Below, piece by piece: positions 1 to 23,186 of a stretch of DNA of 25,808 bases. The first letter of the stretch is position 1, and every line of letters begins with the position of its first letter. The position numbers were made by a program, and so were the translations under genes. Origin of the DNA: Physcia stellaris. Lineage: Eukaryota > Ascomycota > Lecanoromycetes > Caliciales > Physciaceae. A model generated the notes under the pieces. The model made no database searches. It saw nothing but the letters and a program-made list of their open reading frames with translations, and was not told the DNA's origin. Location of the stretch: assembly GCA_018902385.1 (NCBI GenBank), contig JABSSW010000109.1, forward strand, positions 1 to 25,808, in the 5' to 3' direction.

Positions 1-60
1 TAATTATGTAATTAATTTATATTTTTGTATAACATTTCACATTATATCGAAATCATTTTT
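1..60 (+). repeat. Possible left terminal repeat of the outer element (cut by window edge)
   Basis: The window opens with TAATTATGTAATTAATT, which matches 17954-17970 exactly. Weaker similarity follows, through a shared ATTTCACA, to about base 60. If 17952 (TG) is the LTR start, the window begins two bases inside the left LTR. Similarity beyond base 60 is weak, so the length of the repeat is not known. Confidence 0.4.
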
Positions 61-1382
61 TTCATGTTCGTTTATGATACGCGAACATTCAAATAAACAA
101 AGTTTTTGTTTCAAAATTCAAAAATTGATAAAGAAACATAATAGATTCGTATCGTTTGAGCATTCAAAAAAAACAACAAAACGTAACAAATTGATTGTGA
201 ATGCAAAAAAACGAAACATAATAAATTCGTTTGTCGATTCAATTGAATATTTTGACAAACGAATTTCAACGATAATCGATGTCACGAAAATAATTTTTTC
301 GAACGTCGATTCAAATTCGTTTCATTATTAATTGACAAAATTTTTTTGTTTCAAAAATGATTCGATTACATTATTAAACACATATCAAATTATTTCGAAA
401 AAAGTGACATTTATACAAAAAAACATCAAAAAATTAATCAAAAATTTCATTTTCAATGATATTCAACTTTTTATCATTTCGAACGACATTACATTCAATC
501 GATTATTTATGTTTTTTATATTTCGAATTTTTTTTTCTTTTTTCTTTTCAATTTAATTATTTATTATTTTTTATCATCATGATTTTTTCAATTCGTTTGA
601 AAAAACGTCAACGATTCAACGAAATAAAAAAGCTGAATATTTTCGATTTTAATCAGAAAATCGATGATTCTGAACGTTTTCTCGATATCTATATGATCAC
701 AACAATGTTCGATTTTACAAAATCGAATTTCATCGTGATTTTGACGTCAATTGACATATTTAATTTTTCGAAATTAAAAAAAAACGATTTTTGAACAATT
801 TGCACGATTCTGAAAAATTTTGAAATTTTTTCGAAAAAATAGAAACAAAAACATCAATATCATTCGTGTTTGAAACAATCGCGAAAAATACATAAAAACG
901 AAAAATTTAAAACATTTTTTAGAATTCGATGAAATCAACGTTCAATTCGAAACAAATCGAATTGAAATTCATAAATATCGTATTAAAATCAACAAACGAT
1001 TCGTCGTTAATCGTAAATTAAAAAAAAAAAAAAAAAAAAATTTTCGAATGATCAGATTGTCGACGTTTTTTCAAAAATTAATTATAACGAAAAAATTAAT
1101 TTTTTCAAAATTCGTTCAAGAAACAAAAAATTAATTTCTAAATATATCGATTTTTTTATTTTTTATGAACACAAAAATTCAAACATTTTCGATTACATTC
1201 GATATGATATTTGAAAAAATAAATGCGTCGATAAATTAAAAATCAATGCGAATTAATATTTTATTAAACAACAACAAATCATTGCAATCGTTCAATGATT
1301 AAAAAACAAAATCGTCAAACACGTTCACATTCGACGTAAAATTCAACGTTATTTTTTTTTCGATTACGAAAAAATTTTCAAA
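61..1382 (+). other. Decayed leader and Gag N-terminal region of the outer element
   Basis: I recognise no protein here. There are open stretches at 74-331, 332-556 and 456-794, but they are simple-composition readings rich in Phe, Ile, Asn and Lys, as any reading of this AT-rich DNA would be. The stretch from about 590 to 794 may be the N-terminal part of Gag. A short imperfect duplication links 135-170 with 213-243 (shared GAAACATAATA-ATTCGT). A run of 21 A sits at 1020-1040. Confidence 0.4.
1020..1040 (+). repeat. Poly-A run of 21
   Basis: An uninterrupted run of 21 A lies inside the outer element upstream of Gag. It probably arose by mutation of a purine-rich tract and may be length-variable. 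No function is claimed. Confidence 0.8.
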
Positions 1383-1868
1383 TTGTTTGATATCATTTAC
1401 GTCGATACAAATCATGATCGCAATATTCGACGTCAATATAATAATTTCAAAATAAAATTTTCGAATGTATACAGCGAATTTTATTCAAAATTTTTATTAT
1501 TGATTAATCAATTATTCAACAAATTTGATGACGACAAAATTCATAATTTGAAAAAAAAATTTATCGTTAAATTCAAATTGATTATGAATAATTTGAATAA
1601 TTTCATTTCGTTTGATATTTTTTATCGAAAAATTCAAACAATCGATAATCGTCATCGACGTATTCAAAATGATAACGATAATTTTTTCAAATTTTCGAAT
1701 CATAAACAAACATTTCGAATTCGTCGAAACGAAAAATATTTTGCGACGTTGATTATCAATTACATCAATTCAATCGAAAAAAAAATTTACAAAATTGTTA
1801 TAATTCGTTTTTTTGTGAAAAAAAAATGTCGTCGTTGTGATAATTTAAAACATTGATGAAAAAAATGC
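1383..1868 (+). pseudogene. Gag of the outer gypsy element, with damaged zinc knuckle
   Basis: Gag packages the element RNA in the cytoplasmic particle. A 157-codon stretch reads like the capsid part of fungal gypsy Gag: YSEFYSKFLLLINQL near the middle, then a Lys-rich helix-forming stretch, then IDNRHRRIQ, close to the usual IDNR-R end of the retrotransposon Gag domain. A CCHC zinc knuckle follows at 1827-1868: Cys 1827, Cys 1836, His 1851 and Cys 1866, spaced C-x2-C-x4-H-x4-C. Two TGA codons (1854-1859) lie between the His and the last Cys; they are most simply explained as former TGG Trp codons. The upstream start is not recoverable. Motifs are seen; family assignment is from knowledge of gypsy Gag. 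Confidence 0.75.
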
Positions 1869-2556
1869 AAATCAAAAAAATCGTTATTCGAATGAATAAA
1901 CGATTTGATTAAAAAAAAAATATTCAATTTTCAGAATATTGCAACGATTTTCGATTATGTTAACAATACATTCATTGTTTTTTCATTTTTCGATGAATCG
2001 AAAAATTAATTATTTTTTTCAAAAGCGCGAAAAAAATTATCAAAATTTGTTCACGAGATTTTCAGCATAACATCTTTAACGAATTTCTTTGTAAATTTTT
2101 AATTAAGAAAATAAATTTTTTAATTTCGAAAAAACAAAAATCAAATTTATTATTCATCAGATATTGTTCAAAATAACGATACAAAATCATTCAAAATTTT
2201 TCGTTTTTTTGTTTATCATTAAAATAAAACAATATTCGTTGATTTTCAATAAATCATGAATGAACAAACATGAAATGATTTTTAACATAATCAATAACGA
2301 CTGTTATTTCACATTAAATCATTGAAATCATGACGAAACATTTTTTTTATCGTTTCGATCATCGATATTTCAAAAATTATTCAATTCAAACAAACAATCG
2401 AATAAAACATTTTATTTGTCGTTTTTTGAACGATTTTTCACGTCGATTTTTTTTACGAACGTTCAAAAATATCAAATATTTTCGAAACGATCAGTTTCGA
2501 TCTCGTTTCGATCGATTTTTTTTCGTTTTATCGTTGAAAACTGAAACGAAAAAAAA
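1869..2556 (+). other. Gag-Pol linker and probable protease region, unrecognisable
   Basis: By position, between the zinc knuckle and reverse transcriptase, this should contain the aspartic protease. I could not find a D-S/T-G motif. The open stretch 2330-2566 has no recognisable motif. It is probably decayed protease and linker. Confidence 0.35.
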
Positions 2557-4555
2557 TTGTCGTTAAAAAAGTTTTTGAATTTCGATTTCAAATATGTCAT
2601 CGAAAAAATAAACAAAAATTATTTTTCGAATAAACTTTTCAAAAAAAAACAAAAAATGAAAACAATACGCGAAACACAAAAATCGAATTTGATCAACGTT
2701 TCGATCAAAAAATTCGATTTATTCAAAAAATTTACGCGACGTTTTAATCGAAAATTTAAAATTACGATTTTCGAAAATGAAAACGACGAACAAAATTTCG
2801 ATTTTGTCGCATCATTAAATGTCGTTTTTATTGACGCGATTGTTTTTCAATCGTTAACGAAATTTAAAAAAAAAAAAATCAAAACGTTTTTTTTGATCAT
2901 GAAGAAACTAGACGAAATTATCGACAATGTTAAAAAAAATTTAATCAAAATAAAAATTGATTTCGATTTGAATTTCAAAAAAAATTTTAAAATCATGAAA
3001 ACAATCGTCGAAAAATTAAAACGTAAAATTTCTGAATTTTTTAAACGATTCGAAAACGTATTCAATTCGAAAAAAATCGACAAATTATTTTCGCATAAAT
3101 TTTACGATCACAAAATCGAATTGACGAAAAATTCGAATCAATTATTTCGAAATCGAATTTATTTTTTATCGTTTAAAAAATTCGAAATTTTTCAAAAATA
3201 TTTACACGATAATTTTCAAAAAAAATTTATCAATTCAAACAAGACGTTTTATGTTTCGTTCATTTTATTCGTCGTTAAATTTAACGAACAATTTCGTTTA
3301 TGTGTCGATTATCGAAAACTGAACGTCATAATCAAACGTAATAATTATTTTATTTCGTTGATCGAAAAAATTCTTGCGAAAATTATCGATTGTAAATTTC
3401 TGTTCAAATTGAATATCATATTTGTTTTCAACAAATTTCGAATGAATTCACAAAACGAAAATTTCATTATTTTTATATGTTCGTTAAACATTTACAAATA
3501 TCATGTATTGTTTTTTGAATTAATCAATGATTCGATCAATTGACAACATTATATGAACGATTTGTTGTTCGAATATATCAATCATTTTTGTTAAATATAT
3601 TTGAATAATATTTTCATTTATAACAAAATTCGAAAACAACATGAACGACATTTTATTCAAATATTTCAAAAATTAAAAAAAGTCGAATTTCAGATCGATA
3701 TCAAGAAATGCGAATTTTTTCAAACGGAAAATTTTTTTTCGACGTCATATTATCAACAGAAAATTTGCGCATGAATTCAAAAAAAATGCAAAATATTGTC
3801 AATTGAATTCGTTTTATTTGCATCAAGAAAATACAAACGTTTATAAATTTTTACAATTTTTGTCGACGTTTCATCAAAACATTTTCGAAATTCGTTAAAT
3901 TTTTAATTCGAATGATCAAAAAAAAACTGATTTCGAATGAATCGATTTGATCAATGAAACGTTCGAAATTTTGAAAAAACGAATAATCGAAATTTCAATT
4001 TTTCGACATTACGATCGCAATCGTAAAACAATTTTAAAAATCGATTTTTCGAATTGATGTTTAAATGAAATTTTTTTTCAATACGACAACGACGAAATTT
4101 TTCATTCGATAATTTTTTTCAGCAAAAAAATGATTTTTGTCGAATGCAATTACGAAATATACGACAAGAAATTTTTAATCATTATTCGATGTTTAAAGTA
4201 TTGAAAATTCGAATTCGAAAATATCGACGAATTTGTCGAAATATACATCGATCACAAAAATTTAGAAATTTTTATGACAAACAAAAAATTCATTTTTCGT
4301 CAAATGCGTTGAATCGAAATTTTGATTGATTATAATATCAAAATTCAATATCAATTCGGCGTCAAAAACGTTAAAATTGATATTTTGATTCGAATGTCTA
4401 AATTTCGTTCAACGAAAAACGACGAAAAAAAATTTTATAAAAAGCAAATTTTGTTTTTTTTTTCGATTATAATTATGTTCAATAAACGCGATAAATGATT
4501 TGTACGAACACGTCATGCAAATCAATCGCGAAAACGAAAATTGTATTAATTATCG
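2557..4555 (+). pseudogene. Pol (reverse transcriptase and RNase H) of the outer gypsy element
   Basis: A 328-codon open stretch (2557-3543) ends with a clear gypsy reverse transcriptase: LCVDYRKLN at 3297-3323, then FKLNIIFVFNKFRM. After the stop at 3541 the same frame continues through NDLLFEYINHF to the active-site box at 3598-3609, which reads YLNN where active enzymes have Y-x-D-D. Both catalytic Asp are therefore Asn. KKCEFF follows, as expected in the connection domain. The RNase H end is visible at 4328-4395 (DYNIKIQYQFGVKNVKIDIL), and a linker reading NRENENCINYR ends at the insertion point 4555. Stops at 3541 and 3592 and further frame breaks make it non-functional. Confidence 0.88.
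4551..4555. repeat. Target-site duplication TATCG, left copy
   Basis: TATCG directly precedes the left LTR (starting TGTAAG). The same five bases follow the right LTR at 12380-12384. Five-base duplications are normal for gypsy integrases. Confidence 0.85.
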
Positions 4556-4769
4556 TGTAAGAAAATATACGACTGAATAATCAAATGACTACAAACAAAC
4601 GCAATGTTTACGAGACGATGATGAATCATCGTGATAACACTGTGAATAATGATAAAATTGAATCGTGAAAACGAAAAAAAGTGAAAATTTTCGAAATGTT
4701 ATATTTTATCGATCAAGACGTTAAACTCGATCAAATTAACGTTCTTGACGATCTTGACATGACATAACA
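4556..4769 (-). repeat. Left LTR (3' LTR of the minus-strand element), 214 bp
   Basis: It begins TGTAAGAAAATATACG and ends GACATGACATAACA on the plus strand. It matches 12159-12379 at roughly nine bases in ten by eye. The last 120 bases are nearly identical, and most differences are transitions plus small indels. Confidence 0.88.
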
Positions 4770-4786
4770 ATTGTTTTTTTTTTTAG
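4770..4786 (-). other. Likely polypurine tract of the minus-strand element
   Basis: On the minus strand a run of 11 A (4784-4774 on plus) lies four bases upstream of the 3' LTR. This is where a gypsy element has the polypurine tract that primes plus-strand DNA synthesis. Original G residues would have been changed to A by the surrounding mutation process. Assigned by position. Confidence 0.5.
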
Positions 4787-5214
4787 AATTTTGATTTTCA
4801 GAATCGAATCGTCGATGTTCTTTTTGCGTATAATTCATTCGATTTCTCAATTTTTTCGTTTAAAAAGATTTCGTGAAAATAATTTTTTGCGTGACGTCAA
4901 TTTTTGCGCGATTTTCAACTAAAATTTTCTTGTAATTTTCAATGTTGATGTTCGCGATCATGCGATAATTTTCTTGTTAATCGTGATGTTGTCATTTGAA
5001 ATGTATCACGACATTCATGATGCACGACACGAGTATGTTCAAATCAATATCTGTTCGAATCATCAATACATTGTTGTTTTTGTTGAACAAACGAAAACAA
5101 ACGTTTTTGCGACGTCTGTTTTTCGCGAATTCAGTTTTTTTGAACGTAATTTTTGATTTTCGAACACGTTCTGTTTTTTGACATTGAAATAAACAATTTA
5201 AATCAACTTTTGTA

Positions 5215-5312
5215 TGATTCAGATGATTTAACGATAAAACGTTGAAATTAAAATTCTTTAATTTTAAAAATAATCGTTCAAATCGATTTCTGAACAATGT
5301 TTTTTTGTTTCT
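5215..5312. repeat. Internal direct repeat, copy 1
   Basis: Starting around ATGATTTAACGATAAAACG and ending GAACAATGTTTTTTTGTTT, this segment matches 5440-5536 with scattered transitions, about 225 bp apart. It is a tandem duplication within the tail of the minus-strand element. Confidence 0.65.
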
Positions 5313-5439
5313 TGTCTCGTTTTCTTTTTGCTTTAAAGACGATTTTTTTACGTTTTATTCGTGTCATCTGATTTTACGCGTGATAATTTATTCGTGTCAA
5401 AATAAAACATAAAATTTCAATTTGATTTTTATTTGTCAT

Positions 5440-5536
5440 CGCTCAAATGATTTAATGATAAGACGCAAAAGTGAAAATTTTTTAATTTTTGAAATTGTCG
5501 TTCGAATCGACGTTTGAACATCGTTTTTTTGTTTTT
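5440..5536. repeat. Internal direct repeat, copy 2
   Basis: This is the partner of 5215-5312: it starts near AATGATTTAATGATAAGACG and ends GAACATCGTTTTTTTGTTT. The two copies share order and spacing of landmarks, so the similarity is more than AT-richness. Confidence 0.65.
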
Positions 5537-6189
5537 TTGTTTTTCGATTTGTGTTTTGATGACGACTTCTTTGCGTCATTTCAAATATAAATAGATTTAT
5601 TTTGACTTTCATTCATTTTTATTTTTACATGATTATTTTCATTATCAATGACAGATGTTCATTGTAATTTAAATGATGAAATGTTCATTGTAATTCATGA
5701 ATCGATGACGTGACGACGATTTCATTCATTGTTACGTTTTCAATGTGAAATGAAAAAAATTAATTTTCAATTGTTCGAATCGACATTAATTTGTCGTCGT
5801 TGAACAAACGTTTTGTCGCGTTCGTTGTATGATTTTTTTTCGTTTCATTTGCGATTCATCGCGTTCGTCGTTTGTTTTGATGAATGTGTTGAACATTTGA
5901 TTAACGTTTTGACGCGTACACAAAAACTCATTACGATCATTTTTTCATTTTTTTTTTTCAATATTTTTTTGAAACAATTTGATAAAAATGTTTTTCGCGT
6001 TTAAATTGTGTTTTGTTGACGTTGACAATTTGTACAATATCAAAATTGTCAACAATAAATTTATTGCTTTTTTTTTGATTGTTGTTACTGAAACACGTAA
6101 TGATTTCGCGTGACGTCAAAATCAAAATTGTAAATTTGTTTTGATTTCGTGATTTCGTGTGTTAATTTTTTTAATTTTTTAAACGTGTT

Positions 6190-6736
6190 GTGAACACGTT
6201 TCGTGTAAAATGTTGTATGAAATGCGTCAAACGCAAACTTGACGACGTCGAACATGAAATATGTATTTTGCGTTTTCAATTAATCGCGTTGATTTGCGCA
6301 ATGCTTTCGATCGTTTCACGACGACAAATATTTTACGTGCGTGTCGATTCGCAAATTTTGCACGTTAATTTTTTTTAAATATGTTCGTCGAATTCAATAA
6401 CATTTGACGATTTTGACAATTACAATAAAATACAAACGCGACAATTTGATGTTCAATTTGCAATTGCGTTTGAAAAATACGATTGTAAAAACTCAACAAC
6501 ATTTCACACAACAAAAAAAGTCAAATCAACATCGTTTTATTGAGAATTTGTTGTTGCGTTTGAAATTTCGACTCGTCGATATCAATCAAATTTTACGTTT
6601 TATGATCGATTCGTTTCGCGTCAATGAGAATTTTTCAATTATGCGTTTCGCGAATTTCTCGAATGAAAAAAAAAATGAAAATCAGATTTCGACTGATGTT
6701 GAAATCATGAATTTCGACGACAATGACGTCGAATAA
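6190..6736 (+). pseudogene. Possible plus-strand ORF remnant inside the minus-strand element tail
   Basis: Two plus-strand open stretches, 6190-6378 (62 codons) and 6404-6736 (110 codons), lie in the tail of the minus-strand element, antisense to its other genes. The first carries CCMKCVKRKLDDVEHEIC, a Cys/His cluster that could be a remnant zinc-binding motif. The second is basic in the middle and ends in an acidic tail (MNFDDNDVE) before its stop. The minus-strand readings of the same DNA look less protein-like. I cannot name a family, and chance openness in AT-rich DNA is a real alternative. Confidence 0.3.
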
Positions 6737-7369
6737 ACGTGATAATCGTTTCTGAACATTACTTTTATCAAAATCGAACAAATCGTAATCAGTCGAAAAA
6801 TCGATACGATAAAAACGAAAATAAAATTCAAAACGATGTTCATTGTAACTCACAAACTTTGATTTGTGATTTTTTTAACACAAAAACGACGACGAATTGA
6901 AAAAACATCGCATGAAAAAATTAATTGATGATTTCAACATGTTTATTAATTATTTGTACATATTCAATGCAACGACACAATTATTAAAAAAATGAACTTT
7001 ATTGACTTTATTACATATGAGACAATTTACTGTAAAAAAATTCGCATTTTGCGTCTTTTTTGTTACAAATCGTCGTTTTTCTTTTTGAATTTCAAATTTG
7101 ATTTCGTAAAATTTCGTTTGAACGATCGTTTTTTTTTTCTGACGAGAAATGACAATTGAATTTCGACACGTTTTCGCTTGAACGTCGTCAACGTTTCGTC
7201 GACGTTATTCAAATTTTTTTTTTAATTCATTCATTATCACATGATGAATATTTTTTTCAGCGAATCAAATATCGAAACATCTTTTTTTTCACGTCGAGAA
7301 TTTTTTTTATTTTTCATTTTTCGTGATCGTTTATCAAGACTATTTTCGCAAACGATTTTGTGAATTCGT

Positions 7370-8480
7370 TGATATGATATTTTTCGAATAAAAACACGTG
7401 AAATACTGAATGAATGCGTCATTTGAATGACAATTTTAAACGATAAATTTGCGTGTTGACAACGTTTTTCATTTCAAAAAATTCGATGTATTTGTCGAAC
7501 AGTTTTTTTTTGATCGCATTTGTTTTAAATTTTTAATCGACAACATAATTTTTTTTTTACATTGTATGTTTTCGCGAATGTTTTTTTGTTGATTCATTTT
7601 GTTTGCGTTTAATTATTGTGTTTTAAATTTTTCTGTAGTTTTTTCGCTTATCGAACAAATTTTGAAATTTTTATTTCGTCGTCGAAATGTCTTGTTGAAC
7701 AAAATCGAATTTGAAATTGAAATCTGAAATGTATTCGAACAAAATTTCAAACGAAATTAATTCAATAAACGCGTGTTTCGCGCAATTGTATACGAAAACG
7801 ATCATTAACAACAACGAAATTCAATTGTTCTGTTTGTGATTGCAAAAATATCGCAAATAATGTTCAAAAATTTGATTTTGTTTTTTTGTTTGATCATCTG
7901 TTTGTGAATAAAAAACGATGTTAAATTTGCGTTTAATTTTCGCGTGATAACACAATGTTGATCAAAAATTGCTTGTGAACAGAAATTCACGATTTGAAAT
8001 TATGTTTTTCGATGATTTATATTTCAAAAAAACGTCGTCGAAAAGCAAATCACACATTTCGTTTGTTTTCATGATGAATTTAATCGAAACGTAAATCGTC
8101 ATTTTGATGTATCGATTTATTATCATCATAATCGAGTCGTAAATTTTTTTGCGTCATTTATTGAATGAGAATTTTGTGATTATATCAATGATAATTTTTT
8201 TTCATGATTTTGTCGACATCGACAATTTCGACAGTTTTTCGTAAAAACGATGATGATAAATTTTTGTTTTTTGACATATCGCGCATTCTTTAATGTATTT
8301 TTCGATGTTTTTTCGCATGTACATTCAATAAAATTTTCGTTGAATGAAATCAACGATTTTTTCAATTTCGAAATGTTTCGCAAGAAAATCGTCGTGACAA
8401 CGTCGCAAAATTTCGATTTTTAAATTTGTTTCATTTGATACATATACAACATGTCAATATCGTAAAATATTGTTCGAATT
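7370..8480 (-). pseudogene. Integrase of the minus-strand gypsy element
   Basis: Integrase inserts the cDNA copy into host DNA. On the minus strand the N-terminal HHCC zinc domain is well preserved at 8396-8274: HDDFLAKH gives the two His, and CAICQKTK gives the two Cys. A stop lies between them after KFY, where gypsy integrases have Trp. The catalytic core follows in broken frames. The C-terminal end is visible near 7422-7400 as THSFSISR, corresponding to the conserved HPVFHVS segment of gypsy integrases. Several stops and frame changes make it inactive. The zinc-domain reading was translated codon by codon; the core is less certain. Confidence 0.8.
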
Positions 8481-8789
8481 TAATGTTCAATTTTTAAATT
8501 TTTTGTCGTTTCGTATGAACGCGCGACGTTTTACGCATTCATTATCGAACATTTGCAATTTTTCAATTTTGTTGAAAAATTTTTGAAATGAATTTTCGTA
8601 CGAATTTTTTTTGTCACACGTTTCAGCAGTTTTTTTTCGACGCATTGTTTGCGTTATCGCGACAATTTCGTTTTAAAAAATTTTTTTTGAAAATTTCTCG
8701 TCAAAAATTTTTTCGTATTGTTTTGATTTCGTTGAAAACACGATGTTCGCAATTGCGATATTTCGAAATTTGTTTTGCAATGTGAACAA

Positions 8790-10337
8790 ACAAATGTTAT
8801 CATTTTCGTTTTCGTTTTCGTAATTTGAACGTCGAAATGATTCGTTTGTCGAATTGAAATTTTTATTTCTGTATTTGATTTCGAAATCATATTCATTTAA
8901 CAATAAAATTCATTTGATTTGTCGTTTGTTCAGAAACGTGATAAACATGAAATATTTCAAATTGTTATGATTCGACATTACAATGATCGTAAATTGATTA
9001 TTTTTTAAATAATGACGTTATTGTTTGAAATTTTTCACGATAATCAGCAATTTTTGATCGTGCGTTGAATATTTGATTTCGACAAATATCATTTTTTTTG
9101 AATAAAAAGCGACGAAATGTCATTGCGTTTGATTTTCGATGTCGAGATTTTTCATCAATTGCGAAATCATTTTTGCGATGACGAATTTTGAAATATCGAT
9201 TTCAATCATTGTTCGATTATTGAAATCGAAATGCATCAACATGAACGTTTCGATGAACATGCGAATGAATTTCTTGAAAATTTTCATTGTTTCGTCGTTT
9301 CAAATGAATTCGTCGATTTGTTTTTCGTTTTTGTTATTTTTCAATAATTCGAACAGAAAACGCGACATTTTCGCGTATTTTACGATGAATTTTCGATAAA
9401 AATTTGCGAATTTCAGAAAGATTTGCAATTTTTTGAAATTGTTAAAAATCGATCATGATTTGATCGAATTTATTTTTTTCATGTTCATGAATATTTTTTT
9501 GCTATTGATGATATATTTTAGAAACTCGATGAATTTTTGCATAAATCGACATTTGATCAAATTGACGAAAAAATTGAATTTTCGAAAACGTTTAAACATC
9601 GTTTTTACGTGACGTCAATGTTTTTTTTTCGTTCGAAAATAAATCAAAATGTCGTTTAAAAACAACACACACAATTTGTTTATCAATTTTGCAAACATTT
9701 TGTTTATGAACGACTGAAAAATCGTCGACGCGTTGACAAAATCGAAAAACATCACGACGTATTCGAAAAAATCGTATCGTGTTCGAAATACGATTTTTCA
9801 TTCGTCATTCGTTTTGATTTTTATACGATAATACGCGTTTTTTAAATTTAATTTGATGAAATACGCGACGTTCATCAGACGATTCAATGTTTCATCGATC
9901 AACGATAATGAAATTTTGTTTTTGATCGTGATCGCATTCAAATTTCTGTAATTTACGCAAAATTTTAAATTTTTATTTTTTTTGAAAATGAATAATATCG
10001 ACGCGTCAACATCGACAATCGAATGTTTGATACGATTCAACGCAAAATTTTCGCAAATGTATTTTTGAAAAATTTTTAACTTTTTTTGAAACATATTGTA
10101 CAAAAATTCGAAAAACGAAAATTTGTTCGACATTAAATCAATGACATGATCGTGTTCGTCGTGCGAAAAAAACGTGATCGTCGACTTGAAAAAAAACACA
10201 TTTTCGAATGTTTGCAATTCGTTCGAAATTTCGATCGACGTTTCGTCGTTTTTTCGTATGATACATATCAACGCGTACATTGAAATGATGTCATCGTTCA
10301 ACATTGTCGTGAAATTTTCGAAAATGTTTAATTTCAA
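8790..10337 (-). pseudogene. Reverse transcriptase and RNase H of the minus-strand gypsy element
   Basis: A 179-codon open stretch (10337-9798) holds the N-terminal half of reverse transcriptase, with FCVNYRNLN (usual LCVDYR-LN, Asp now Asn) and FIKLNLKNAYYRI. After a stop at 9798 the same frame reads IVFRTRYDFFEYVVMFF and reaches the active-site box at 9662-9651, FLND, where Y-x-D-D is expected: the first Asp is Asn and the second Asp is kept. The end of RNase H is visible at about 8900-8870 as LNEYDFEIKYR. The order matches gypsy Pol. Stops and altered catalytic residues make it inactive. Confidence 0.87.
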
Positions 10338-10406
10338 TCGATTTTTTTTGATTGTGTAACGTCACGTCATCGTGAATCAATATACGTGTGAATTGTTTTT
10401 CATTAT

Positions 10407-12080
10407 TCATGAAAAATTCATTATCAGAAAATACATCAAATTTTGAAACGAATAAAATTTCTGCATCGAAATGAAAAAATTATTTTTGTCATCACGAACA
10501 TTCATTTTTATTTGATACGTATTAATGAAAAATTTGTTTTCGACATCGAAATTATTCATTTTCATGAACGTTTCGTCGATATTTTGCAAATTTCATTTTT
10601 TCGTCAACGATTTCGAAATGCAATTTATGTTCAACGATCGAATTTTGAAATTCATTTGCGATTGTCATTTTTCAAAAATATTGACGTTGACGCGAATGAA
10701 TATGTCATTTGATTAAATTTTGTGTGAATTCGAACGACAACGACGATTATCGCAACAGATTTTTTCAATTTTTCGAATCATTTTTGATTTCGATAAATTT
10801 TGAAAATGTTTTGTTTTTATTTTTGCGAAAATTGACGTCGACGATTGTTTTTTCTTGAAAAAAACAATTTTTTTTTATGTTTCGATTAAATCGCAATTGT
10901 AACAATTTCGATGTTTTTTTCGTCGACGAATCGACGTCGTTTTTTGTTTTTATCAAATTGATTTTTCGTTTTATCAGATTAATCAAAAAAAAAGTTTTTT
11001 TTTTGACGAAATTTTTGTTCTTTTGACGTTCGCGATTTCGAACGAAAAAATTTGCGAAAATCGAAAACGTTTTGAAAATTCTTGATAAAATGACGATCGT
11101 TTTGCATTGACGACTTTGAACAAAATTTTTTGACGAATCGTCGACGAAATTGAAATCGAATGTGATAATTTTTCGTAAAATATCGTTCAAATCATAAAGA
11201 AACTTTTTTTTTTTGATGTTTTCGATGACGTTGATTTTGTTTTCAACGACGATTCGAAATGCGTCGCGAATTCATTCATATTTTTTTTTTTTTGACATTA
11301 TTGTATTTTTGATTCATCAAAACGACGAGTTTCAAAAAAACTCGACATCGTTGTGAAAAAATTTCGAAAATACGATCACGTTCATCAATTTTTTTTTTGA
11401 TTGATTGATTTTTGATGCGATTTTCATAATTCGATTGAAATCGTATCAAAAAACTGTTGCGTTTAAACGATTTTGATACGACGTTTGAAAAAATAATTAA
11501 AATTTGCGTCGAAAATTCACACAGCGTTTCGAATTCACGATTGAAATTTTTTAATATTTTTGACGTTGTAAATGAATAAATTTTTGAATTTGAATTCGAT
11601 GATTCGTCGAAAACGCAAACGTTTCGAAATAAATTTATTACGAAAATTTTCGTTGTCGTTATTGTCATCGTCGTCTTCGTTATTGAAAAACGTTTTGAAC
11701 GTTTTTTTTTTCAACAACGCGAATTGAATTAATTTCGTTTTTTGAAATGACGTTGTATCGAAACGTTGATTTTCGTCAAAAACAATTTATATTCACGTTT
11801 GTTTTTAATTTTTTTCAGTTATCGATTTGAGTTGTTCGCAATTGTGCGTAATTCGTTTGATTATCGAATTCGAAATCGTCGACGTTCGTTGAAACGACGA
11901 TAATACGTCGAAACGACACACGAAAAACAACAACAATGCGTTCGTCGTTTAATGAGTTTTCATGAATTGAAATTAATTCGTTTCGTTGATCGATTTCAGA
12001 TTGAAACGATTTCACGATCGTGTTGTCGAATGATGATTGTTGAAACGAAATGACGATATTGTTTCGAATAATGAACAAAA
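10407..12080 (-). pseudogene. Gag and protease region of the minus-strand gypsy element (decayed)
   Basis: Between the 5' LTR and reverse transcriptase on the minus strand there are open stretches at 12078-11815 (87 codons), 11668-11276 (130), 11190-10765 (141) and 10589-10407 (60), separated by stops. They are basic and rich in Asn, Lys and Phe. I see no intact zinc knuckle and no protease D-S/T-G motif. The call rests on position within the element. By order, Gag should be roughly 12.1-10.8 kb and the protease roughly 10.7-10.4 kb. Confidence 0.55.
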
Positions 12081-12158
12081 AACAACAAATATTTTCGAAA
12101 TTTTAAATGATGTCATTTGATCGAACAATCGTTCACGAAAATTTAAACGATTCAAAAT

Positions 12159-12379
12159 TGTAAAAAAATATACGATTGAATGATCAAAAATGATTACAAA
12201 CAAGCGCAATGTTTACGAAACGATAATAATAAAATCGTGATAAATTGATTTGTGAATAATGATAGAATTGAATCGTGAAAACGAAAAAAAATGAAAATTT
12301 TCGAAATGTTATATTTTATCGATCAAGACGTTAAACTCGATCAGATTAACGTGTTTGACGATTTTGACATAATATGACA
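12159..12379 (-). repeat. Right LTR (5' LTR of the minus-strand element), 221 bp
   Basis: It begins TGTAAAAAAATATACG and ends CATAATATGACA on the plus strand. It is seven bases longer than the left LTR because of small indels in its first half. It is followed directly by TATCG (12380-12384), the second copy of the target duplication. Confidence 0.88.
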
Positions 12380-12384
12380 TATCG
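12380..12384. repeat. Target-site duplication TATCG, right copy
   Basis: It matches 4551-4555 exactly. Downstream, the outer element's reading frame resumes as ILIDDQIINEKINL. Confidence 0.85.
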
Positions 12385-13512
12385 TCAGATTTTGATCGAT
12401 GATCAAATCATCAACGAAAAAATAAATTTACGAAATTGTTCGAATCGAAACGAAATTCTATTTAAAAACGAAAATTTATGAATGTCAAATCGATTAAATT
12501 TTATGATTGAAATAATTCGTGATGTTCACGATCAATTTTTTTGTGCACATTCGAACATGAATCGTATTGAAAAACTCATTAAACGTTATTATTATTGATT
12601 TAGTATGAAATTATTTATCAAACGTTATATTCGAAATTGTCAAAATGTCAACGATCGAAATTTTTCACACGATAATCGTCACGAATTGTTAATTTCATTG
12701 TCGATTTTTAATCAACGATAAATTGATATATCAATGAATTTCATAATCGAATTATTTGATTTCAAAAACAACAATGTCATTTGTATTATTATCGATCGAT
12801 TAATCAAAAAACGTCATTACGTTTCTTGTGTGATCGATGACGATTTGATTTAAAAAAAATTTGTTGCAAAAATATTAATATATTACGTATTTCGTATTCA
12901 TGAATTATTTTTTTTCATTATTTCAAATCGAGATGATCAATTCGTAAATCGCGTTTGAAAAACTTTTTGTAAACGACTAAAAATCAAATGTAAATTATTC
13001 ATCGTTTTTCAATCAAAAATCGATGATCAAATCGAACGAACGAATCAAAATATTGAAATTCGATTACGTTTATATTGCAATTATCGTCAAAACGATTGAA
13101 TTGATTGAATAAATATTATGAAATTCGTTGACAACAACGATGTTTCAACAATCATCGAATTAATTTCATTTTTCATCAATAAAAATATCATTTTCGAATG
13201 ATTTTCGAATCAAATTTAAATGATTACGAAATTAAAAAAAAAACGATTGTTAATTAAACAGAACGAATTCATTGTCGAAAAAATGAATCGTATTATCGAA
13301 TTGTCAAAATCAATTTTGTCGACGCGAAACAGAAAATAATTGTTCGAATCAACAAATTTCGTTTGTTTATAAATTTTGAAATAAAAAATTTTTTTGATTA
13401 AATCGTCGTCATATAAAAACGATTCGTTAAATCAAACAAATTCGATGACAAAAAATTGAATTCATACAAAATAATCAAAAAAAAATTTCGTTTATGAATT
13501 GAAATTGTGATT
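12385..13512 (+). pseudogene. Integrase of the outer gypsy element
   Basis: The plus-strand reading has the first two zinc ligands in HDQFFCAH (12527-12550), then KLIKRYYY and YIRNC. The last Cys falls in another frame, so a frameshift breaks the HHCC domain at about 12640. In the core, the expected catalytic Asp in the S-M-D-F segment is Asn (codon AAT at 12737-12739). Later, DNNDVSTIIELISFF (near 13130-13175) matches the late-core segment of fungal gypsy integrases. The C-terminal SH3-like part reads LNRRHIKTIR after a stop at about 13396 that replaces an expected Trp. It completes the Pol begun at 2557 across the nested element. Confidence 0.8.
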
Positions 13513-13515
13513 CGA
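13286..13515 (+). repeat. Integrase C-terminal segment, copy 1
   Basis: From about CGTATTATCGAATTG to ATGAATTGAAATTGT, this segment is similar to 14216-14455. The best-matched part is AATCGTCGTCAT. The two copies look moderately diverged and are about 930 bp apart. Confidence 0.6.
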
Positions 13516-14215
13516 ATCTGAAAAGAAATGACAATCATTTGTGTATAACAATTATTGCGAATACATTCATAGCAAGACAATTTTCGGATTCAGAACGATA
13601 AATCAAAACAGCGACGATGAATTTCTAATTATTTATTTCTTTTTTTCAAAACAGTTTGTTTATATTCTATTATCAGCGTATCAACTCTTTTTTCGCAAAT
13701 GATCAATTCGAAACGTTGTTTTTATCTGCGTCGACGCAGTAATCAAAACATGATTCAAGATTTTTTAAAATATTCTTCAACGAGTTCGCTTTTCGAAAAT
13801 CTTGAAAACTGTTCGTGCATTTTTCAAATCATGACAATTGATTTGATTTCGTTTGCAATTTTGATTGTTTTTGACTTCGAACATTCAAACAAAATAATGA
13901 TTATTAATCAGTATTTTGCATTGTTGTTTGAAATTTAACTGAGCGAAATCTTCATTTCGCAAAATTCGATTGACGTTTGTAAATTTCGTGATCTTGACGA
14001 TACATCGTCAAAAATTGAGGCGATTGAATTGAAAACGACAATGAAATCGATCGTTTGTTAACGATGTTTCGATCGTTCGATTTTTGATAATAAAAATTGT
14101 TAACGATTTTCGAATTGATATTACAATTCACGTTGTGATTTTGAAAATGTTTTGTCAAGCGAAGTCGAAGTCTAAAAAAATTTGAAATTGTGATAAAACA
14201 AAAAAAAAAAAAGAA
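13516..14215. other. Segment between the two integrase-end copies, less depleted in CT and AG
   Basis: This stretch keeps more CT, AG and even GG dinucleotides than its surroundings (for example AACTCTT, GATTCAG and GTCGAAGTCT). The plus-strand open stretch 13699-13938 and the minus-strand one 14158-13952 have no recognised motif. It may be an insertion or part of another element copy that was mutated less. Confidence 0.35.
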
Positions 14216-14490
14216 ATCGTTATATTATCGAATACGTCAAAATCAATCATTGCGATGTGTGAAATCAAAATGATAATTCGACGTAAAAACTTTGTTGAAA
14301 CTCTGTGATTTGAAAAACGAAAATTAGTTTTTTATAAATCGTCGTCATAAAAAATGATTCGTTATCAAACAAATTAATTACGTAATTTGCGTCAAAATTA
14401 TCAAAAAAAAACGTTTTGATTTTTACATAATGAATTGAAATTGTTCGACGATATGCACATTCATTCAATTTTTCATTTTTGATTGTTAAA
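14216..14490 (+). pseudogene. Second copy of a gypsy integrase C-terminus
   Basis: It is similar to 13286-13515 and carries FINRRH in the SH3-like part. It then continues past the end of copy 1 into NELKLFDDMHIHSIFHF (about 14430-14480), which matches the conserved HPVFHVS end of gypsy integrases. Frame shifts occur between these motifs. It may be the true end of the outer integrase after a tandem duplication, or a fragment of a second related element. Confidence 0.5.
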
Positions 14491-15202
14491 AAAAAAATTT
14501 TAAAAATTCGTTAAAAAAAACAACATAACGATTTTTCAAAATCAATTATTGCAAAAAAAATGTCGAAATGAAAATTCGATAATATATTAAAATTTCGATA
14601 TCATTATTATCGATTACAATATCGTTACAATTGATTCGAATGAAAATTTCACGATCGAACATGATATTACGTCGACGACGACGAATTTCAAAATGTTCAA
14701 AACATCGTCGATGTTTTTCACGATATTAATTCAAAAACAACAAAATTTGATTTGCGAAATGATTAAATCATGAATTTTATTGTTTATGATTAATCAGAAA
14801 ATTGTTATCGAATTCGTTACAATTCATTTTCAAATTGATTTCAATATTTTTTTTTGTTATTCGTTTCGTTATCATTTCGCGTTGTTTACAGTCAGAATTT
14901 ACGTCGCATGAAAAACTGAATCGTGTCAAAAACATTTTCAGAAATTGTCGTCAAATTTTATTGAACAATGAATAATAATGCAAAATGTTATGCAATGAAA
15001 TGAATAAACGCAAATTGTCAAAAAAATTCGAACATTTACGAATTCGTCAACAAAATTTTCAATTGCTTATTAATGACACGCGAAATTATTTGTAAAATTC
15101 GTTCAAAATACTTTTTTTTCAGAAAATTTAATACATGCATTTTTCGCTGAATGCAATGTACGAATCAAACGTCGTATATGCGATAACATCAACGCGTTAA
15201 TC
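14491..15202. other. AT-rich sequence with no recognised gene
   Basis: Readings on both strands are short and simple in composition. By position it belongs to the 3' part of the outer element, downstream of integrase. I see no motif, LTR or RNA gene. Confidence 0.5.
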
Positions 15203-15207
15203 GTGAT
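15203..15207. repeat. Target-site duplication GTGAT, left copy
   Basis: GTGAT precedes the 5' LTR of the young element and recurs at 17290-17294 directly after its 3' LTR. Confidence 0.93.
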
Positions 15208-15358
15208 TGTTACGGTAAACCTCCACATAGGGCTGGAGTCAGGATATCTTGACCAGAAGGGACTAGCGCCTTGGCACTCTGGCCCATATCTCGCACTCTG
15301 CCTCCTAGATAGTAACAATCAAGCATATTATCCACCCACATCACGATTTATCGTAACA
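15208..15358 (+). repeat. 5' LTR of the young element, 151 bp
   Basis: It starts TGTTACGGTAAA and ends TTTATCGTAACA. These 12-base ends are inverted complements of each other with one mismatch. It is identical to 17139-17289 except at 15223. Confidence 0.95.
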
Positions 15359-15380
15359 ATGATAGCATCATCGAGAACAC

Positions 15381-15407
15381 GATCGACAGCTTTCCAAGCT
15401 GTCGATC
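15381..15407. other. Perfect 12-bp hairpin just inside the 5' LTR
   Basis: GATCGACAGCTT (15381-15392), loop TCC, then AAGCTGTCGATC (15396-15407). It begins 23 bases after the LTR end, in the leader of the predicted transcript. A stem here could act in RNA packaging, dimer formation or priming. This role is inference from position. Confidence 0.8.
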
Positions 15408-15723
15408 CTCAAAGCAGCGACCAACGCCGCTGAGCCGTACCAGAGCCGTTGCGGGCATCGCCAGAACCGATTAAGGGTATCACCAACTCCGCTGGAAGAA
15501 ATTTGTTTATTATTGCAATAGAAACCACATCAGCATATCTACCTACCGATACATTTATCTACCTACCGACCTAGCACCGACCATCAGATCGAACCTACCG
15601 ACTCGTACACCATGATTGCTCCTCCTGAGTTCATTGAACGGTGAACCTCCTTCGCGACGTATCCTTCTACATTACTGCCTACCGCATATCACCTCGCTAA
15701 CTCTGGATTTACATACAAACAAA

Positions 15724-17085
15724 ATGCCGATATACCAGGCCATGTCCATTGCATCGAATGCGACCTTCAATTCCTACGAATTCAAGCCTAATGAGAACGC
15801 ATATCATCAACCACTGTCAATACGCCCCGACATGTCCTTGAATACTCGCAGTCAAGCAGTATCTAGCCAATTCAAAAGCAGTATCAATATGCCAAGCAAG
15901 GCCGCAGTGGCCGCAATGCCTACACCCCCTACACCAAAGCAGTCGCCTGCTGCACCAACGAAACACCCAGTGGCTACAATGCCAACACCCCCTGCGAACA
16001 CCTACCTCCACCGAGTGAGCCAGCATCAGTGCTCACACCACCTACCAGCAGTCAAAAACGGCCTCGAAAACCTCACTTCCTGATACCCCTCCTGCAACGC
16101 CACCAGTCAAAACCGACCCGAAAAGCAGTCACTTCCAGATACACCAGTTGCAACACCAAGAAAGCCAATATCCTGGGCCGAAATAGCCTCACGCCCAATC
16201 GTTGCACAAAGCCTTCGCGTCTCCCAATTCCTACAGCAAAACCAACACCCAAATGCGTTGAAGACTGCACCAAATACCTGCCCGCCCTACACCTCCAAAG
16301 CCGACCCCAAAGCACCAGAAACCCTACCTCACCATCGAAGACCTGTTCGAGATGTTCGCTGAAAGCCAAAGCGAAGGAGCCTGATACACACCAAGAAGAC
16401 CGAATCGCCTCGAAGCTCCGCCAGCCAAGATCACTCCTACTTCAGGCCTGCAACCAATCAGAACGCATCGATTAGTCAGGGCTCGAAAACTCCAAATCCG
16501 AGGAGTTTTCACCAGCGTATGCCCGCGGAATCGATCCGCGCCAAATCCTTACCTCCTACCTTCACGAAACCGGCTCCTGAGAATTCGATCGTTTCGCCAT
16601 ACAAAATGCCCTCTATCTCCGATGGCATACCATTTACACCTGCTCCCCTACCCCTACAAAGGCCACGCACTCAACGAGGCCCCAATTTCTGCCAGCCAAA
16701 GGATCAGACCTCAACAAGTCAGCCAATCAAAAGCCGTGGATTATCAAGAATGCGAAGATTCCATGGCTCGGCGAGACTATTCGCTGGGTGGTATGTTGGC
16801 CTCAGACTTCGAAAACCTCCCCCATACATGCCGCCGCTGCTTTCGAGCCTTCCGCTCCAATAACGACCTGCATGGGCACCTCCGCTGCAACCCATTTCGG
16901 AGCACCGCCGCCGCCGCTCCGAGCAAATCCCTCGGGTCAACGCCAGCATCAACCCTGAAGAAAGGTCTAGACGGTCCGCACCGAGCGCAATCCACTGAGA
17001 CAACTGGGCCAATCGACGGAGAACTCGATGAATTCCTTACTTCTTTCTTTGTATTACTAATAGATTTCTCAAGGATGGATCGCAT
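15724..17085 (+). pseudogene. Frame-broken Gag-like gene with a terminal zinc finger
   Basis: The coding trace runs through several frames. A first Pro/Thr-rich part starts at MPIYQAMSIASNATF (15724) with repeats of MPTPP. Then frame 1 (RKPISWAEIASRP near 16159) carries SWAEIASRP, a segment I associate with fungal Gag-like proteins. Frame 2 then carries YLTIEDLFEMFAESQSEG (16325-16378) and finally SLGGMLASDFENLPHTCRRC. The finger CRRCFRAFRSNNDLHGHLRC (about 16829-16888) fits C-x2-C-x12-H-x2-C and the SNN-LH-H pattern common in fungal retroelement proteins. At least two frame changes and a stop (about 16382) break it, so it is unlikely to give one full protein. Confidence 0.6.
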
Positions 17086-17138
17086 GTCCCGCCACGCGGC
17101 ACAACGAGGGCGTTGTGGTCTTTTTCGTTGGTGGCATC

Positions 17139-17289
17139 TGTTACGGTAAACCTGCACATAGGGCTGGAGTCAGGATATCTTGACCAGAAGGGACTAGCGC
17201 CTTGGCACTCTGGCCCATATCTCGCACTCTGCCTCCTAGATAGTAACAATCAAGCATATTATCCACCCACATCACGATTTATCGTAACA
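17139..17289 (+). repeat. 3' LTR of the young element, 151 bp
   Basis: It is identical to the 5' LTR except for G at 17154 (C in the 5' copy). A C/G difference is a transversion and so is not a product of the C-to-T decay seen in the flanks. Confidence 0.95.
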
Positions 17290-17294
17290 GTGAT
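17290..17294. repeat. Target-site duplication GTGAT, right copy
   Basis: This is the second copy of GTGAT. Removing the element and one copy restores continuous AT-rich sequence. Confidence 0.93.
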
Positions 17295-17951
17295 GATAAA
17301 AATTTTATCGATTGATTCAAATTGTTTGTCTCGTGATATCAATTTGATGTTGCAAAAATTTTCAGAATCGTTAACGCGTTCAATTGTTTGTTTATTAATG
17401 TTCGTCGAAGTTACTTTGACGAATTGTAAAAATTGATCATTTTTCGACATTCATTACATTCGCGTTTTGTCGCATGCAATGTACACATTCGATTTCGCAT
17501 ACGCGAAAATATCAAAATTTTAAACATTGTTACGATGATTTTATTAACACATCAAATCGCCGTTTAAGTCGTAAATCGATTTGATGTTTTCACGATTTTG
17601 ACAGATCGATTTCGCGAACGAAATCGATTTCGACATTTCGAATTTATTTATTCGTTTTATCGATTATTGATTCAACGTCATTCAACAATATTTAAATCAG
17701 CGCAAAACGTTCATCGTTAAGCAAAAAAACATTGATTGATCGTTTCGAAACGAAATTGAAAAAAAACGAAAATACATATGACGAACGTATATCGAATTCA
17801 ACATTTGACCAAATTCAACATCGAATTAATATCGTTATTTTATCGCGTCGAATGTTAAAATCGAAATTCGTCTTGACGCATTCAAGAAATCAAATTTTCT
17901 ATATATGTTTTTGCAAATTTCATGTATTTGTTTTTCATTTCGATATTTTCG
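17295..17951. other. AT-rich 3' part of the outer element, no recognised gene
   Basis: The open stretch 17732-17956 (74 codons, basic) has no known motif. I see no polypurine tract directly before 17952, which weakens the placing of the outer LTR start there. Confidence 0.45.
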
Positions 17952-18013
17952 TGTAATTATGTAATTAATTCATATTTCACAAGCATTTCACACGACATTC
18001 AGTAATTTTTACA
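17952..18013 (+). repeat. Possible start of the right LTR of the outer element
   Basis: TG followed by TAATTATGTAATTAATT (17954-17970), then a diverged stretch with ATTTCACA, parallels the first 60 bases of the window. The length of the full LTR is not determined. Confidence 0.4.
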
Positions 18014-18620
18014 TTGTGCCTTCAATTATCATACGACGAAAATCAACATTTCACATTCAATGTATTCATTAATTTTATTTAGTTATTTTATTTTACAATC
18101 ATTTTGTAAATATAAATGCTTTATTTTTCAAATATTACTGACAATTCGCTGTTCAATCAATAAGTGATATATATTTATTCAAATTCATTAAAATTTGTTC
18201 ATTTCAAAATATCAAAAATTTTTATCACATTTTGAATCTAATTTCGTAAATCATTCATTTTTTTATAAAATTGAAATAAAATTTTTGATTTTTTGTCAAA
18301 TTTATTCAAAATTAAAACAATCGAATGTAAAAATTTTTTCGATCGTCGTATTTTTTCGATTATTGATTTTTATGTTTCGACGATTATTTGCATTTAAACT
18401 TGTACAGTAATTGTATAAACATGACAGAAATTTCGTTGCAAAAAAAAATTTTGTTGCACGATATCGACCGAAAATTTGCGAAAAAATTCGTTGATATTAT
18501 CGACGAAAAATTTGTGAATTTTCAATTAATATAATAAATCACAAAAACAATATACGTTGAAACATCGACAATTTTCGTGCGTTGAACAATACATTAAATC
18601 ATTTGTCAATTATTTGAATA
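18014..18620. other. AT-rich tail, no recognised gene
   Basis: Sequence of the same mutated type continues to the composition boundary. The plus-strand open stretch 18195-18410 has simple composition and no motif. It may contain the rest of the outer LTR and unrelated decayed DNA. Confidence 0.45.
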
Positions 18621-18732: not shown

Positions 18733-18957
18733 CATCGCTTAGCTGTCTGGAGAAGTTTGATTCGTGATGAAAGAGGTGAGTTATCAATAAGCGAAGAAGA
18801 GTGCGCTCACTACCGATCAATTCTGGAGTGCACTTCTCCTTTCTGGATGAGTGGTAAACAGGACAACTCCTGAGTAAAAGACGATCTCGCAAAGGTGGTT
18901 GTTGATTTAAGCATGACGTCAAAGCTTTTCGGATTGCAAGAAGGCTAACAATTCTTG
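18724..18957 (+). pseudogene. Unknown small coding relic with one in-frame stop
   Basis: An ATG at 18724 opens a 49-codon frame (MNGHRLAVWRSLIRDERGEL, then SISEEECAHYRSILEC) to a TGA at 18871. The same frame continues past the stop with VKDDLAKVVVDLSMTSKLFG to a second stop at about 18955. The mix of charged and hydrophobic residues on both sides of the TGA looks like real protein, so the TGA may be a mutation in a once longer gene. The ATG lies in the last unit of the tandem array, so the original 5' end may be missing. I do not recognise the family. Confidence 0.35.
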
Positions 18958-19116
18958 ATGCAAGGTAGATTTTCAATTATTTGTTTTTCTCTAATCTCTC
19001 CTGCTCCTTTCCATTCCTACTTATTTTGAGAATAGAAATAGAAATCCGTACTCTTGATATGACTTCTCACCTTTGCTTATTGAGTCTTCAAGTACCAAGA
19101 AGAGACAGGCTGATAA

Positions 19117-19377
19117 GTTCGTCCCAAATACTTTAGCGCAACAGCACCGCAACCTTCCGACGACCTCAACTTTCAGATCCAACGAGGACGCTACATCCAC
19201 TATGATGTGCGAGAGCACGCCATAGCTGGTACAATGAATGGCAACGCTGCCCACGGAACCAATCTTTCATTCAACGTACCTCTTGCTTTCAATGAATTTG
19301 TTGGCGTAACTGATTCTGCCAAGACGAATCGCATTCACATTGCAGCGGTTCGTCTGGAGGGTTTATCTTTCGAATGA
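19117..19377 (+). pseudogene. Unknown coding segment, copy 1 of a diverged tandem duplication
   Basis: An 86-codon open frame runs from just after a stop at 19114 to a TGA at 19375, with FQIQRGRYIHYDVREH, TMNGNAAHGTNLSFNV and AFNEFVGVTD. The first ATG in frame is late, so it is more likely an exon or truncated gene; an AG at 19116-19117 could be a splice acceptor. The DNA from about 19200 to 19600 is similar to about 19745-20170. The aligned protein reading shares GT, AFN-FV-VTD and EGL with copy 2. I do not recognise the family. Confidence 0.35.
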
Positions 19378-19623
19378 AACGGAATGCTCTGCTACTAGGG
19401 ATTGGCTGTTTTGAATTTATATTTGCAAAAGAATCTCGAAGCAACGATTGATTCTGCTGCATCGATTGCAACTTGCAAGTACTGTAACTCCACTTCCCAC
19501 CACACGCTCTGACGCTATGGACGGCGACTGTAAACCCTTCCCCGAGACCTCCTCGGTTCTCCCGAATACGCTATCCCATGGTGCTACTTTTTACGATACA
19601 CTGCAGATCTACGCTTACCCGAC

Positions 19624-20028
19624 ATGGGGCGAAAGCAGAAGATGATGTTTTTCATGTCAATTGCATATCGTCTTCAAATGCGTTGTGCCAAATACGGGTA
19701 CGCGTTTTGTCGTAATGGATGGGTCGGAGACGATGCATCAGAGAAGAATAGCATCACATCCGACCATGGAATAATGAACGTCATGATTGTTTCCGGAACC
19801 ATTAGTCTCTTTGGCGCAATTTTTGCATTCAATAGATTTGTTGACGTAACTGATCGCCAAAAGAGCGAATCCACACATTGTGACCGTTCGTCTGAGGGCT
19901 TACCTTACTACGAATGGGAATGGAATGGAATGAATGGAATACTCACTCCGATATCATCTCTGCTACAGGGATCGGTGTTATGGATTTATCATCGCAAAGA
20001 ACCTCTCCTGAGCAAGAATCAAACCTGA
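19624..20028 (+). pseudogene. Unknown coding segment, copy 2 of a diverged tandem duplication
   Basis: A 134-codon open frame from an ATG at 19624 reads, in its middle, IMNVMIVSGTISLFGAIFAF then NRFVDVTDRQKSE. It lines up in the same frame with copy 1 (TMNG...GT...AFNEFVGVTD). It keeps no stop where copy 1 ends, because of a GAATG-rich expansion. The hydrophobic stretch around VSGTISLFGAIFAF could be a membrane segment, but copy 1 lacks it. Neither copy looks like a complete gene. No family is recognised. Confidence 0.35.
19913..19940. repeat. Short GGAAT-type repeat
   Basis: GAATGGGAATGGAATGG and following bases form an imperfect pentamer run. Copy 1 of the duplicated segment has only GAATGAAACGGAATG here, so the run expanded in copy 2 or shrank in copy 1. 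Confidence 0.7.
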
Positions 20029-20169
20029 TGCTCGGGTTGCAGCTTGCAATTCCTGTATTTCACTTCGGAACGCATGCTCTGACGATACGAACAGCGATTG
20101 TGTAACCAGCTCTTGCTATTTCCTCAGGCTTTCCTCAAGTTTCAAAACACGCTATCGAGCAGCTGGATT

Positions 20170-20990: not shown

Positions 20991-21014
20991 CCCGGACTAT
21001 ATGCGTCGCAGTCC

Positions 21015-21290: not shown

Positions 21291-21313
21291 ATCATACCGT
21301 ATCTTGGTACAAC

Positions 21314-21400: not shown

Positions 21401-21415
21401 TAATTCTACATTTCC

Positions 21416-23180: not shown

Positions 23181-23186
23181 CTTGCC

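Follow-up and report, generated by a model that had tools for sequence, protein, structure and literature searches.

What has removed nearly every C that precedes a pyrimidine from most of this locus? In the window, by which we mean the whole 25,808-nucleotide stretch of Physcia stellaris DNA analysed here, an earlier note had described C-to-T decay that hits CpC and CpT (together, CpY) on both strands and spares CpA and CpG. Its hand count of four lines was reproduced exactly (CA 10, CG 16, CC 0, CT 0, AG 0, GG 0), and a count of all dinucleotides confirmed a depletion stronger than the one first claimed. Positions 1-15207 (GC 26%) hold no CC where about 253 are expected from the C count, and 4 GG; CT (126) and AG (120) each have an observed-to-expected ratio (o/e) of 0.17, the loss of AG and GG mirroring that of CT and CC, so that both strands are affected. 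CA (857, o/e 1.22) and CG (978, o/e 3.79) persist, and the o/e of TA is 0.40. Whereas the loss of CC is total, that of CT amounts to about five sixths and is uneven, with an o/e as high as 0.53 at 13501-14000. Positions 17295-18620 are likewise poor in CpY, whereas the control DNA at 18733-25808 (GC 49%) is normal (o/e: CA 1.08, CC 0.87, CG 0.97, CT 1.08); the element inserted between them and the first block is, as the earlier note had it, rich in both dinucleotides (CC 216, o/e 0.97; CT 140, o/e 1.01).

The mutated DNA of the window is largely transposon DNA (Table 1). The first block matches 83 genome pieces, itself included, dozens of them 80-95% identical among the 40 scored of 499 candidates. 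The gypsy-type element has a reverse transcriptase match (PF00078, E 2.5e-17, at C109:9513-9983, minus strand) interrupted by 2 TGA stops, and the 43.97-Mb assembly contains 14 exact matches to a 23-mer of this element, 13 of them outside the window. The stretch from about 13.7 to 15.2 kb can be aligned to contig C46. The unmutated insertion, which has 73 matched pieces across the genome, ends in terminal repeats of 151 bp with 1 mismatch (TGTTACGG...CGTAACA). About 700 bp directly after 17295 recur in about forty genome places (40 of 429 candidates scored), and among the 40 scored of 429 candidates the stretch at about 18.0-18.7 kb was found only in the window and in C46. The mutated blocks are multi-copy, but about 18.0-18.6 kb was found in two places only, and some repeats escape mutation. 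When ten frames of the window were compared with Pfam, the gamma-glutamyltranspeptidase exon alone scored above the cut-off.

Table 1. Features of the window, with the evidence for each.
Feature	Position	Strand	Evidence
CpY-depleted transposon block, multi-copy	1..4400		CC 0; repeat matches
CpY-depleted gypsy-type LTR retrotransposon	4556..12379	-	LTR pair and reverse transcriptase match
LTRs of the gypsy-type element	4556-4769 and 12159-12379	-	87% identity over 221 columns
CpY-depleted stretch before the insertion	12380..15207		CC 0
Left target-site duplication GTGAT	15203..15207		
Unmutated 2.1-kb LTR-type element without recognised gene	15208..17289	+	CC/CT o/e near 1
Right target-site duplication GTGAT	17290..17294		
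CpY-depleted DNA	17295..18620		CC 4, GG 0, CT 10, AG 13
Unmutated control DNA	18733..25808		CpN o/e 0.87-1.08
Gamma-glutamyltranspeptidase exon at cut right end	25144-25806	+	PF01019, E 4.9e-42

The direction of the changes and their 3′ context were read from copies of another gypsy family, with a natural high-GC copy picked among the loci bearing a reverse transcriptase (L044, on contig C52) as the reference. This copy retains CC 183 and CT 196 in 3483 bp, so that the concern that intact copies might already lack CpC and CpT falls away. Against 11 mutated copies of the family, including one whose alignment is noisy (L051, 285 transversions), C had become T at 4505 of 4677 CpC (96%), 4170 of 4900 CpT (85%), 384 of 4667 CpA (8%) and 196 of 4296 CpG (4.6%), these being counts of cells and not of independent events. 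Alignment of copies was the test set beforehand, and the proposed CpC/CpT preference withstood it. CpC was the more completely converted of the two CpY contexts in every one of the 11 copies, and in 9 of them the gap exceeded 5 points. Over 3466 bp the cleanest copy, L061, differs from the reference by 925 C>T or G>A changes, with a single T>C and a single transversion besides; it has changed at 442 of 444 CpC, 456 of 467 CpT, 26 of 444 CpA and 0 of 411 CpG, and has lost 898 of its 911 CpY sites. No other copy is nearly free of other changes, transversions numbering 8-285 in the remaining ten. The loss of CpY in L061 preceded the accumulation of other substitutions.

Targets are defined by the 3′ base, with hardly any influence of the 5′ base. 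In the seven low-noise copies, the changed fractions were.99,.97,.98 and.99 for ACC, CCC, GCC and TCC, and.84,.89,.83 and.90 for ACT, CCT, GCT and TCT; the minor changes at CpA favoured CAC (.14) and CAT (.07) over CAA (.04) and CAG (.03). The first C had changed in 687 of the 692 CCG sites of the same copies, which bears out the suggestion that the excess of TCG is the product of CCG. New stops in the three longest reference frames arose from tryptophan codons, by TGG>TGA, in 242 of 306 cases across the 11 copies, an excess that CpC targeting on the opposite strand predicts. Both strands are mutated, unequally in some copies (L057, CpT 129/191 and 219/266). The CpT sites spared in the most saturated copies, L061 and L065, overlap little with those spared elsewhere (Jaccard 0-0.06). 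Less saturated copies share spared sites beyond shuffled expectation (in one case 27, where shuffles averaged 9.8 and reached 15 at most), and the cells are therefore not fully independent; the shared sites are either poor targets or the trace of a partly common history. Strand-wise tracts of spared CpT showed no consistent clustering in nine copies, L061 equalling the shuffle maximum with very few sites.

A second, more diverged family, aligned to its own high-GC reference (L058), gave an order in agreement with the first: over the longest aligned stretch of each of six copies, the changed fractions were.44-.82 at CpC,.44-.71 at CpT,.20-.27 at CpA and.12-.22 at CpG. Saturated copies of the window family differ from one another in another way. 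Nine pairs yielded C/T differences at 740 CpA, 296 CpG, 282 CpT and 1 CpC, together with 213 transversions, and the two LTRs of the gypsy-type element in the window differ at CpT 10, CpA 6, CpC 0 and CpG 0. We did not accept this comparison as a gauge of the main preference, CpY being exhausted in such copies; it points to a slower decay of CpA and CpG on top of the loss of CpY. The earlier note had named a majority of changes at CpA or CpG as the outcome that would overturn its claim, and the 740 CpA differences are no such majority but a residue between copies already stripped of CpY.

The signature extends well beyond the window. Across 33 loci with GC <0.32 (106,921 bp), which came through searches and not through random sampling, the o/e was 0.04 for CC, 0.26 for CT, 1.21 for CA, 3.31 for CG and 0.40 for TA, with TA never above 0.55 in any locus. 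Three of these loci (L004, L060 and L063) keep a CC o/e above 0.15. Of 16 one-kb stretches taken at round coordinates, 15 were normal (GC.45-.57) and 1 was AT-rich with CC 0 and GG 0. A 5.8S gene, the sole match of an rDNA search, sits in CC-poor DNA.

Some repeats have escaped. In the family of the element at 15208-17289, the internal CC o/e was 0.85-1.26 in each of the 29 loci retrieved besides that of the window (L015-L043, a few of which overlap as parts of a single copy), and 14 of the 29 have flanks with at most 14 CC plus GG, other flanks often including unmatched element DNA. The family includes pairs that are 92-97% alike over 3-5 kb with CC near normal. The embedded element was tried as a reference for mutation and failed, its relatives being largely unmutated. 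Pooled differences from it, with overlapping loci counted twice and plus-strand matches only, came to CpG 223, CpC 219, CpT 141 and CpA 125 for C to T and to CpC 221, CpT 179, CpG 147 and CpA 76 in the reverse direction; an excess at CpY was absent from these pooled differences save in one terminal repeat on C28, where 11 of 14 C-to-T differences fell at CpC. The close pairs C109/C46, C60/C95 and C102/C71 are without a strong CpY excess. Two further loci, L045 and L046, are 95% alike over 3.4 kb, both of high GC, with 42 transversions and differences that lean mildly to CpY (CpC 42, CpT 37, CpA 31, CpG 23). The unmutated family and this high-GC pair together indicate that the process spares some repeats, and any dependence on homology is seen here only as an association with repeats.

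A search of the genome for DNA methyltransferases (PF00145) gave four matches in three genes; the enzymes that the earlier note wished to see inspected comprise two of the RID/Masc1 class and one resembling DIM-2. The predicted enzyme on C3, with ENV at motif VI, DUF7893 and a BAH match below the cut-off, appears DIM-2-like. Those on C5 and C6 carry PPCQ and, at motif VI, EQT and EET, respectively; across a 174-residue section of the catalytic part they share 40% identity, against 26-27% with the putative DIM-2-like enzyme. According to PMC6709928, the Masc1/RID class is recognised by EQT or EET replacing ENV and by a short recognition domain of about 80 residues, and the EET triad occurs in Botrytis Rid and in Pseudogymnoascus. 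The presence of both RID-like and DIM-2-like genes suggests a filamentous ascomycete host of the Pezizomycotina, to which the EET triad points weakly as well. The gap between motifs VIII and IX in the C5 and C6 enzymes measures some 70-80 residues by eye on predicted exon joins, and their PCQ and EQT/EET motifs assign both, at the level of sequence, to the RID/Masc1 class. For enzymes of this class, no activity in vitro had been demonstrated as of 2019, as that paper describes it.

Taken as a whole, the signature looks like RIP with a preference for a 3′ pyrimidine. C-to-T changes on both strands lie far above all others (925 against 2 in L061) and two genes of the RID/Masc1 class are present; the CpA preference of the Neurospora type, which is not required of all RIP, is absent (384/4667 against 4505/4677 at CpC). 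The tabulations in both families fit the suggestion of a RIP-like process with a different sequence choice. In our view the transposon DNA of the window has probably undergone heavy mutation by a RIP-type defence that targets CpY, with a homologue of the RID/Masc1 class as its agent. Such a cytosine methyltransferase would be directed to duplicated DNA during the sexual cycle and would act on C before a pyrimidine, the base then becoming T; an altered reading of the 3′ base by one of the two RID-class enzymes (EQT or EET) would account for the switch in preference. Both the likely agency of a RID-like enzyme with a changed choice of 3′ base and the timing in the sexual cycle are inferred. A more specific version, tentative and somewhat less likely to hold than to fail, is that the sequence choice of RIP has shifted to CpY and leaves out CpG by way of the diverged second RID paralogue, the EET enzyme on C6, that conversion becomes nearly complete within a single sexual cycle or a few, and that present RIP indices do not see the result.

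The DIM-2-like enzyme might instead make the CpY changes through a heterochromatin-linked pathway. Its gene is present in the genome, and in Neurospora, as set out in PMC11969663, DIM-2 takes part in RIP where duplicates are old and heterochromatic; the same source describes new duplicates as RID-dependent, and L061, with 1 transversion in 3466 bp, is young, which makes this explanation unlikely. The youth of that copy weighs further against slow, ordinary deamination of methylated non-CpG cytosines with no burst. The slower CpA/CpG component between saturated copies and the other substitutions in 10 of 11 copies would suit such decay, but 898 of 911 CpY sites lost against 1 transversion and 1 T>C does not, and we regard it as very improbable. 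Methylation and deamination at CpG, in which CpG is the main target, does not fit the 196 of 4296 CpG changed overall and the 0 of 411 in L061.

CpC and CpT could also have been removed by two successive processes, one for each, as the lead of CpC in every copy, exceeding 5 points in nine, might suggest. A single enzyme with a graded preference gives CpC above CpT equally well, however, and in L061 and L065 both contexts are near-saturated together, so two such processes are improbable. The earlier note had also allowed for a second process acting before or after the first; no second main process is needed, since a copy that has gained just one transversion has lost nearly all its CpC and CpT alike. 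APOBEC/AID-like deaminases choose their target by the 5′ base. A single-strand cytidine deaminase of this type preferring CC would explain why CC is the best target, but here the 3′ base decides and the near-neutrality of the 5′ base argues against it, which leaves it scarcely credible. A genome search for APOBEC_N at E 0.1 gave no match; it carries little weight, since distant deaminases would escape it and 14 prokaryotic control genomes were also without a match over the cut-off.

The process shares with the RID-dependent RIP of Neurospora crassa the C-to-T changes on both strands, the repeats as targets and a RID homologue, but the order here, CpC>CpT>>CpA>CpG, almost reverses the CpA>CpT>CpG>CpC given for that species in PMC5496416, which gives CpA~CpG, CpT>CpC for T. 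reesei. Botrytis, Sclerotinia and Magnaporthe are described in PMC4352252 as having a CpT signature alongside CpA; CpT is targeted here too, and Botrytis Rid has the EET triad of the C6 enzyme, but in this genome CpA largely escapes and CpC, a term absent from the text of that paper, comes first. The same source names CpG as the main signature in basidiomycetes and, with CpA, in Tuber; these CpG/TCG-type signatures are also repeat-associated C-to-T changes, but with CpG as the main target, where L061 has none changed. For CpC, the closest thing to a hint in print comes from the heterozygous C/T hypermutation of the basidiomycete Rhizoctonia solani AG8, where Table 2 of the report gives CpC the closest spacing of any class (214 bp), although the text stresses CpG; those are SNPs at a low level in both genes and repeats, unnormalised by dinucleotide abundance and without saturation. 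In Monilinia, CpA changes plus CpC->TpT double mutations have been reported. Full-text searches of the openly readable literature, subscription papers such as Clutterbuck 2011 lying outside it, gave no CpC-first RIP.

The mutated DNA of the window scored as RIP-negative by the standard indices (thresholds as in PMC7882544), and index-based surveys may therefore miss such species. A kingdom-wide survey of 2025, which used a k-mer screen and not indices, presents CpA preference as common to RIP-like defences (PMC12543289), a conclusion that the CpY case contradicts. Known fungal systems prefer C before A; the transposons here have been hit at C before C or T by a strong RIP-like process whose traces lie at many genome locations, a variant of RIP with a new sequence choice for which a RID-like enzyme and the sexual cycle would provide the agent and the moment. 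With a natural RIP of nearly opposite preference and two RID-class genes of known sequence, what determines the choice of the 3′ base by RID-class enzymes becomes testable.

Standard RIP indices (TpA/ApT 0.42, substrate 1.26, composite -0.84) score positions 1-15207 of the window as RIP-negative, although this DNA is saturated. Indices based on CpC and CpT give 0.002 and 0.043 here, compared with 0.753 and 0.952 in the unmutated control DNA. In Rhizoctonia solani AG8, CpC is the C/T SNP class with the closest spacing (PMC4014442, Table 2); the text of that paper puts the weight on CpG.

The family of the inserted element seems to escape the mutation process, except for one terminal repeat on contig C28. 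CC is near-normal in 29 of the 29 other loci fetched, many copies are surrounded by DNA depleted of C before a pyrimidine (CpY), and the family includes pairs of copies that are 92-97% alike. A segmental duplication shared with contig C46 takes in the inserted element together with mutated flank on each side. A short tandem array lies at the boundary between mutated and normal DNA.

Coordinates of the features discussed
Feature	Position	Detail
2-kb LTR-type family, multi-copy	window 15208-17289	other loci L015-L043
Segmental duplication	window 13743-18780; G000:C46:37891-42957	92% across 5151 columns
Short tandem array	window 18606-18713	periods 20 and 38
5.8S rRNA gene (L013)	G000:C41:45899-46052	sole match among 39 scored of 2644 candidates

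The DNA around the 5.8S gene contains 2 CC and 6 GG in a total of 3154 bp. This locus, the sole match among the 39 candidates scored of 2644, is apparently a mutated rDNA relic, so intact rDNA seems to be absent from the assembly.

Two reverse-transcriptase-bearing loci, L045 (contig C5) and L046 (contig C12), are a further repeat pair that escaped: they are 95% alike across 3.4 kb, lie in reading frames that stay open for 1024 and 1151 aa, and differ with only a mild lean towards CpY.
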